DNA from: Stappia indica
GTDB lineage: Bacteria > Pseudomonadota > Alphaproteobacteria > Rhizobiales > Stappiaceae
DNA: 64,000 bases
Direction: 5' to 3'
NCBI RefSeq assembly: GCF_020177335.1
Contig: NZ_JAIVMG010000003.1
Coordinates: 186,001 to 250,000 of the forward strand
The first letter of the stretch is position 1. Each line of letters opens with the position of its first letter. Shown piece after piece: positions 2,496 to 57,075 of this stretch. Below the pieces are notes generated by a model that saw only the letters and a list, made by a program, of their open reading frames with translations, was not told the DNA's origin and did not search any database. Position numbers and translations under genes: made by a program.

Positions 2496-2524
2496 TTGCC
2501 CCGCTTCCGCCACCGTGGCATAAG
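2496..2524 (+). promoter_or_regulatory. Candidate sigma70-type promoter for the structured RNA
   Basis: TTGCCC (2496-2501) and CATAAG (2519-2524) are separated by exactly 17 bases, giving a moderate match to the -35/-10 consensus. Initiation would fall near 2530, just before a run of hairpins ending in an intrinsic terminator. Purely sequence-based; the hexamers are imperfect. Confidence 0.35.
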
Positions 2525-2529
2525 AAAGC

Positions 2530-2682
2530 CATCATCAAGAGAAGGGCTGGCGCCCTCGCCAACCTGCCCGACCGGGCAAGGTGGTCTCCCTCAACCGGGG
2601 ATGTGGCCGGGAAACCGGCAACGAAACGGTCGACTTCGTCTCTCGCGCCAGTCCTCCTCGGGAAACCGATGGAGGATTTTTT
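2530..2682 (+). ncRNA. Candidate structured leader or small RNA ending in an intrinsic terminator
   Basis: The ~150 bases after the candidate promoter fold by eye into a series of hairpins. These are AGGGC/GCCCT at 2543-2556, an ACCTGCCC/GGGC(A)AGGT stem around 2562-2582, GCCGG-GAAA-CCGGC at 2606-2619, and the terminator stem at 2652-2676 with another GAAA loop. Two of the hairpins share the core CGGGAAACCG. I do not recognise a known riboswitch class, 6S RNA, 4.5S RNA or RNase P RNA in it. It may be a cis-acting leader (attenuator) for the ORF at 2684, or an independent sRNA. Confidence 0.45.
2652..2682 (+). terminator. Intrinsic terminator overlapping the Shine-Dalgarno of the next ORF
   Basis: TCCTCCTCGG pairs with CCGA(T)GGAGGA across a GAAA loop with one bulged T, followed immediately by six T residues (2677-2682). 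The GGAGGA in the 3' arm is also the ribosome binding site for the ATG at 2684, so folding would both end transcription and hide the RBS. Confidence 0.75.
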
Positions 2683-2683
2683 A

Positions 2684-3022
2684 ATGCTCGGTCTTCGCCA
2701 ACGTCTCCAGCCGGAGGCAGATGCCCGCACGCCGCTTGCGCGGCAACAGGCAGAGCCGGTCTCTCCCTTGTCCGAGCCGTTGTCGTTTCTGGAGCTGCGG
2801 GTGCTTGCAGTTGGGGCGCTGGTGCGGCTGCGGATGCCCCGGACCGGGCGGATCACGTCGCCACTGGCGACTGCGGAACGGCTGGCGCGGCTGGAGCGGC
2901 TGCAGGCACTGTGGATGTCCGGCTGCCGGCAGGTGGTCGACGAGGGGCTTTTCCACGACATCGCCCATCGCCATCCCGGTGTTGCCCAGAGCGTCCGCGC
3001 CCGGGTCAACAGCCGCCCCTGA
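2684..3022 (+). CDS. Small protein of unknown function behind a structured leader
   Basis: 112 residues starting at an ATG seven bases after GGAGGA. I do not recognise the family. Codon choice (frequent CTG, CGG, GCG, GTC) matches the neighbours, which supports a real gene, but overlapping frames are also open on both strands. The protein is Leu/Arg/Ala-rich, with a predicted helical middle (residues ~33-85), two His pairs near the end and no signal peptide or membrane segment. Its translation start is embedded in the terminator hairpin, implying conditional expression if the gene is real. Confidence 0.5.
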   Translation: MLGLRQRLQPEADARTPLARQQAEPVSPLSEPLSFLELRVLAVGALVRLRMPRTGRITSPLATAERLARLERLQALWMSGCRQVVDEGLFHDIAHRHPGVAQSVRARVNSRP

Positions 3023-56799: not shown

Positions 56800-56855
56800 C
56801 ATTTTCCTGCGGCAGAGCCCTGGCGGCGATGCGGTGCGAAGATGAAACCATGTAC

Positions 56856-57075
56856 TGCGGGAGAGACCGGGGCGAGAAGCTCCGGCGCCGAAGGAGCAAC
56901 CGCCCCGGAAACTCTCAGGCCAAAGGACCGCAGGCCAAGCAACGCTCTGGAAAGCAGTGCGACCGGGACAATGGACCGGCCGGGCTCACCGAAGGAGTAA
57001 CCGCCGGACGGCATCGCGAAGCGCGCGATTCAGCCGCAGGGCGGGAAATCTCTCAGGTTGTCGGGACAGAGGGGG
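56856..57075 (+). promoter_or_regulatory. Tandem glycine riboswitch
   Basis: Two adjacent aptamers precede gcvT. The first has GGGAGAG, CCGAAGGAGCAA and GGAAACTCTCAGGCAAAGGAC-type elements (56860-56930). The second repeats CACCGAAGGAGTAA and GGGAAATCTCTCAGG (56985-57070) with an extended hairpin between. This is the well-known dual glycine aptamer that switches on the glycine cleavage operon. No terminator lies between it and gcvT, so control is probably at translation start. I could not assign the promoter. Confidence 0.93.

Follow-up and report, generated by a model that had tools for sequence, protein, structure and literature searches.

Results

The leader of a small Stappia indica gene is a SAM-I/IV riboswitch

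We wanted to know what a hairpin-rich leader does in front of a small gene of no known family in Stappia indica. The locus lies in a 64,000-nucleotide stretch of DNA, which was analysed whole and is called the window below; all positions refer to it (Table 1). A sequence-only reading had described here a promoter-like pair with a 17-base spacer, about 150 bases rich in hairpins, and a strong stem with six T whose 3' arm, GGAGGA, stands just ahead of an ORF of 112 codons. This last arrangement is confirmed by the sequence. The same reading had recognised no known RNA class and proposed an Rfam search, and that search names the class. Using cmscan on the whole window, two RNA matches were obtained, one of which was the SAM-I/IV riboswitch aptamer, Rfam RF01725, at 2527-2635 of the forward strand, with 66.4 bits for a gathering cut-off of 41.1 and an alignment covering model positions 1-99 of 99. 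Between 2450 and 2760, RF01725 alone was reported at E values up to 1, overlapping matches of its clan being reduced to the best, and it is the single match within the 4.66-Mb genome. The RNA is thus a SAM-I/IV riboswitch, and SAM is the probable ligand of this copy, judging from its class. For the segment 2527-2684 the folding energy is -72 kcal/mol (z = -3.37), equalled by 0 of 200 shuffles, which bears out the description of a hairpin-rich leader.

The window copy resembles the class in its full-length covariance match, in its P2, in a pseudoknot between the P3 loop and the 3' tail, and in the P5 hairpin that follows P1 (2606-2619). Its P2 is one short undivided hairpin, GGGC-UGGC-GCCC, without internal loop. 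For PK-2, the complement is present by sequence, GACC 2570-2573 with GGUC 2628-2631. The constrained fold adds a short helix between P3 and P1, at the place of P4, a region that the Rfam model leaves unpaired. According to PMC2864571 (Weinberg 2010), the variants ('SAM-I-IV-variant') lack the internal loop of P2; for SAM-I/IV, PMC6890682 describes an undivided P2, a P4 and no PK-1, and a SAM-binding core common to SAM-I and SAM-I/IV, and PMC5393176 names a structure, 4L81. The divided P2 with kink-turn of SAM-I (S-box) was not found in the window copy. Neither is the element a SAM-II (SAM_alpha, RF00521), which by class has the same ligand and belongs to a different RNA family; one SAM-II copy is present in the genome, ahead of a Cys/Met PLP enzyme that is probably metZ.

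To assess PK-2 across sequences, each P3 loop was scored with its own tail and with swapped ones. Over 115 distinct sequences the mean was 13.14 with own and 11.54 with swapped partners (0/5000 permutations), and over the 42 from outside the family it was 13.36 against 11.52 (0/5000), relatedness among the sequences not being removed. The own partner was best or tied in only 5/115 and 3/42, respectively. Parsing was automatic and the 3' tail was misplaced in some rows (L004, L005 and L007 in the printed sample).

The promoter-like pair also withstands comparison. TTGCCC and CATAAG are present, with a TG at 2516-2517 making an extended -10, and the columns are conserved over the 86 elements of the family (CTTG; TG.CATAA): T, T and G occupy -37 to -35 in 99, 92 and 91%, TG stands at -17/-16 in 90/97%, and A is found at -13 in 91% and at -11 in 90%. 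These elements reach a best promoter score of 8.0 of 12 on average, compared with 6.1 for shuffles, although single elements deviate. A stricter consensus scan listed no promoter in this stretch of the window. Transcription would start near 2530.

Table 1. Positions of the riboswitch, its expression platform and its target gene in the window
Feature	Position	Strand	Basis
Promoter: -35 TTGCCC (2496-2501), 17-base spacer, -10 CATAAG (2519-2524)	2496-2524	+	Columns conserved
SAM-I/IV riboswitch aptamer (RF01725)	2527-2635	+	cmscan; helices from folding
Aptamer P1	2530-2533/2600-2603	+	
Aptamer P2	2544-2547/2552-2555	+	
Aptamer P3	2562-2569/2574-2582	+	
Aptamer P5	2606-2610/2615-2619	+	
Aptamer PK-2	P3 loop 2570-2573 with 2628-2631	+	Complementarity, own vs swapped
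Switch strand A, J1/2 and the P2 5' arm with its loop, GAGAAGGGCTGGCGC	2539-2553	+	Pairing, own vs swapped, shuffles
Switch strand B, GCGCCAGTCCTCCTC	2645-2659	+	Conservation; energies
SD-sequestering hairpin, TCCTCC-TCGG-GAAA-CCGA-T-GGAGGA	2652-2676	+	-16.9 kcal/mol alone; family conservation
Shine-Dalgarno (SD) GGAGGA, hairpin 3' arm	2671-2676	+	Spacing to start conserved
T6 run, in this lineage possibly the tail of an intrinsic terminator	2677-2682	+	T-run counts
Gene of the 112-aa orphan protein, riboswitch target	2684-3022	+	dN/dS; family presence; no known family

The riboswitch is inherited together with a gene of no known family

We looked at the distribution of the riboswitch and of the protein, the latter scored by profile A1, in 87 genomes of the family. 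Both were present in the same 86 genomes, as one riboswitch-protein element per genome, and both were absent from the remaining one (G022), in which the flanking genes are kept on both sides. Among 385 class-sampled genomes the own genome was the single match to the protein (0 of the 384 others), where at most 11 candidates were scored per genome, so that distant relatives could be missed. A single-protein search of 24 genomes from other families in the order gave no match.

The sequence-only reading had called the gene small and unknown, and comparison shows it to be conserved, under selection and of no known family. The dN/dS ratio is 0.23 against the nearest relative (L003) and has a median of 0.31 over 303 pairs filtered for more than 80 codons and a dS of 0.05-1.2, 99.3% of them below 1. 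The 112-codon ORF is therefore a real gene under purifying selection. Its closest named relative belongs to Stappia taiwanensis (Stappiaceae), with 87% identity, and identity falls to 25% within the family. A strict LW...DE.L motif occurs in 75/86 ORFs; nine carry variants recognised by eye and two look broken (L045, L166). With these two left out, W77, E87 and L89 are invariant in 84/84 ORFs, G80, D86 and R96 are found in 83/84, and C81 in 79/84.

The window protein had no match over the curated cut-offs of Pfam or NCBIfam, and among 33 family members the best E values, given by one or two of them, were 0.11 (Pfam), 0.059 (NCBIfam) and 0.039 (PHROGs). A PDB sequence search returned a best E of 0.94. 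The AlphaFold2 model made from two sequences shows no secondary structure over residues 1-34 and only helices thereafter, with a mean pLDDT of 55.5, too poor for a structural search. A relationship to MetA was considered and rejected, profile comparison finding nothing (probability 0.1%); the own genome has no MetA match (PF04204).

The composition of the protein was also examined. Internal methionine makes up 0.86% of the 84 intact-looking family ORFs and 2.2% of 63 conserved neighbour genes, a depletion of about 2.6-fold, and cysteine 2.5% against 0.7%, an enrichment of about 3.4-fold. No internal methionine at all is found in 31/84 family ORFs. In 19 short neighbour genes internal methionine is at 3.7%, at least one of them having none. 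This composition is suggestive of a protein made in methionine shortage, although the sequences are related and not independent, and the protein may serve cells short of SAM or methionine.

An operon partner was discarded in the window, where the next gene is on the opposite strand. All 14 neighbourhoods that were retrieved contain a thioesterase gene (4HBT). In 10/14 it follows directly, in convergent orientation; it lies behind another convergent gene in L161 and L165, and is upstream in L159 and L160, in which the next downstream gene runs in the same direction about 0.5 kb on. It was absent from the first 9.5 kb of the window.

A predicted alternative helix links the aptamer to the ribosome-binding site

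The RNA by itself is an ordinary member of a known sensor class; what deserves attention at the bench is its strict pairing with an unknown protein specific to the family. Between aptamer and gene, UCCUCC 2652-2657 pairs with GGAGGA 2671-2676 and UCGG 2658-2661 with CCGA 2666-2669, with one bulged base; the T-run 2677-2682, an A and ATG 2684 follow. In this expression platform the 5' arm of P2 can pair with a strand of the SD hairpin, 14/15 positions pairing between 2539-2553 and 2645-2659. For the window copy without ligand, the fold with this switch helix reached -72.0 kcal/mol against -64.0 for the OFF fold with intact aptamer, and the fold with the SD hairpin alone enforced reached -71.4. 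Either predicted state leaves the anti-SD strand base-paired. When the aptamer was enforced (P2 in all 86 family elements, P1 in the 71 where it was placed), mean pairing of the SD hairpin went from 0.64 to 0.99. It rose by more than 0.05 in 55/86 elements and fell by more than 0.05 in none; in the other 31 it shifted by at most 0.05, presumably because the SD is already hidden there.

The two strands co-vary between lineages, with CTGGCGC/GCGCCAG, CTGACGC/GCGTCAG, CCGACGC/GCGTCGG and ACAGATGCC/GGCATCTGT, so that the alternative pairing is kept by compensatory changes. Within the family the strands are nearly invariant (CGCCAGT[CT]CTCCT.GG, strand B, in 86/86), and the covariation therefore stems from other families. 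Over 40 distinct P2 sequences, the P2 arm scored 24.2 with its own downstream strand and 19.6 with swapped ones (0/5000 permutations), and an earlier cut with 39 gave 23.5 against 18.8 (0/5000), relatedness again being left in; the own partner was best or tied in only 6/40. Compared with dinucleotide shuffles, the switch helix reached p<0.05 in 22/41 distinct P2 sequences and p<0.01 in 12/41, against 3/49 and 1/49 for a P3-region control whose rows were not made distinct. The 19/41 that fell short of p<0.05 include SAR11-type copies.

Taken together, the element is very probably an OFF switch for a small stand-alone gene. At low SAM, J1/2 with the 5' arm and loop of P2 (2539-2553) would pair with 2645-2659, leaving the SD GGAGGA free, and the 112-aa protein would be translated (ON). 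With SAM bound, P1/P2 and the PK-2 pseudoknot would be held in the aptamer and strand 2645-2659 would be released; its UCCUCC would fold with GGAGGA and hide the ribosome-binding site (OFF). The six T behind the hairpin in the window genome suggest that the same hairpin could also end transcription. The gap of 8 kcal/mol to the OFF fold would need SAM binding and the pseudoknot, neither of which is counted in the fold. We infer both the direction of the switch and termination in vivo.

SAM-I riboswitches also follow an OFF logic, their alternative helix taking the 3' strand of P1. The alternative helix of the window copy instead takes P2 and J1/2. Four alphaproteobacterial copies of the same aptamer class that precede metA, the target being homoserine O-succinyltransferase, were compared; in these the P2-based alternative helix reached p<0.05 in L136, L137 and L152 and p=0.06 in L083, and the UCCUCC/GGAGGA hairpin was not seen by eye in any of the four.

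A hairpin that would hide the ribosome-binding site is conserved more widely than its T-run

The hairpin had been called a terminator whose 3' arm buries the ribosome-binding site. The burial holds throughout the family, GGAGGA being the 3' arm of the hairpin in 86/86 elements (78 by the strict pattern, 8 variants by eye). Comparison between genomes likewise supports the riboswitch geometry. The terminator part holds for some of them: at least five T follow in 54/86 (six directly behind the stem in 48/86) and 0-4 in 32/86, five elements having no or one T. A start codon, TTG in 48 and ATG in 38, stands 4-7 nt past GGAGGA in 85/86 and 12 nt past it in one. In the window, ATG 2684 is the better start, because ATGGAGGA is found inside the hairpin in only 62/86. 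Since the GGAGGA arm is kept in 86/86 against 54/86 for a T-run of at least five, translational control by hiding of the SD seems to be what the family conserves, and termination looks, from these counts, like an addition in some lineages, the window's included. Here a GC-rich stem is followed by the T-run as in a terminator; a mechanical terminator scan did not list this hairpin, perhaps because of its bulged base. The sequence-only reading had also drawn attention to a core, CGGGAAACCG, shared by two hairpins. It does occur both in the P5 hairpin 2606-2619 and in the terminator loop, and was rejected as a functional repeat: only 3/86 family elements have it, the window's among them, so the likeness probably arose by chance from two GAAA tetraloops.

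The same counts bear on other explanations. Purely transcriptional attenuation, a terminator against an antiterminator with the SD overlap incidental, would fit the 48 elements with six T directly behind the stem and the 54 with five or more; the invariant GGAGGA arm and the five elements with no or one T argue against it, and we hold it to be unlikely. In another reading the product is the short SAM-terminated transcript, which would work in trans as a SAM-responsive small RNA with the ORF secondary; the strong hairpin and T6 would end it about 150 nt from its start. Such an RNA would explain why RNA core and hairpin hardly vary within the family although identity of the protein drops to 25%, and would agree with the many different ORFs behind this RNA class outside the family and with copies that have no clear ORF in the DNA read (L146, L149). 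No defined short transcript is expected, however, from the 32/86 elements lacking a T-run of five, and the anti-SD strand is paired in either predicted state; the SD-to-start spacing is kept in 85/86, and purifying selection acts on the ORF. This explanation, less likely than a riboswitch acting on the ORF, appears improbable to us.

A relic, in which the riboswitch was duplicated from metA and the new downstream ORF is non-functional, would be in line with a second copy ahead of a metA-like gene in nine genomes of one genus and with the two broken-looking ORFs. Against this stand the retention in 86/87 genomes, the median dN/dS of 0.31 and the three residues invariant in 84/84 ORFs, and we give this origin hardly any weight.

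SAM-I/IV riboswitches precede varied genes in Alphaproteobacteria

RF01725 was found in 35/385 class-sampled genomes, the own one included, and the DNA downstream of 38 matches, the window's excluded, was read. MetA-like ORFs follow in 7/38 (L083 and L152 were scanned and both match Pfam HTS), an OmpW-like gene in 4/38 (Pfam for L068), DUF3293 at L062 and a beta-eliminating lyase at L153. For the remaining 25/38, 11 ORFs were scanned with Pfam and none passed the cut-off, and some of the other 14 matches had no clear ORF. Among the second copies ahead of MetA-like ORFs in nine genomes of one genus of the family, the ORFs at L136 and L137 match Pfam HTS. The window copy differs from the described SAM-I/IV riboswitch in its target, an orphan small gene, and perhaps in its expression platform, in which the P2 5' arm pairs with the strand of the SD hairpin. 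Our literature search, in listings and excerpts, found no paper on SAM-I/IV ahead of this gene, and an earlier mention is possible.

A riboswitch reveals which signal its gene answers to, and here low SAM is a first functional handle on this orphan protein; the finding also hints that the class has more targets of unknown kind. Tentatively, and as a possibility that we would not yet favour, alphaproteobacterial SAM-I/IV riboswitches may govern hidden lineage-specific small proteins made only at low SAM, the methionine-poor and cysteine-rich Stappiaceae member acting in SAM starvation as a regulator or effector. If true, the protein would have a hitherto undescribed part in methionine economy.

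Further loci were noticed along the way. At L068, L072, L076 and L078, which we take to be SAR11-like, a second leader, strongly conserved and some 60 bases long, lies between the SAM-I/IV match and the OmpW-like gene, directly before the latter; it may be another RNA element. In other families (L074, L077, L079, L080, L081), SAM-I/IV lies ahead of a different group of small ORFs that share WTHLY by eye; the three tested (L074, L080, L081) had no Pfam match. One genome (G347) has four SAM-I/IV matches: the ORFs behind L065 and L145 had no Pfam family over the cut-off, and L146 and L147 had no clear target in the DNA read. Finally, the window contains a Glycine riboswitch aptamer (RF00504, 67.3 bits) at 56848-56940 on the forward strand.
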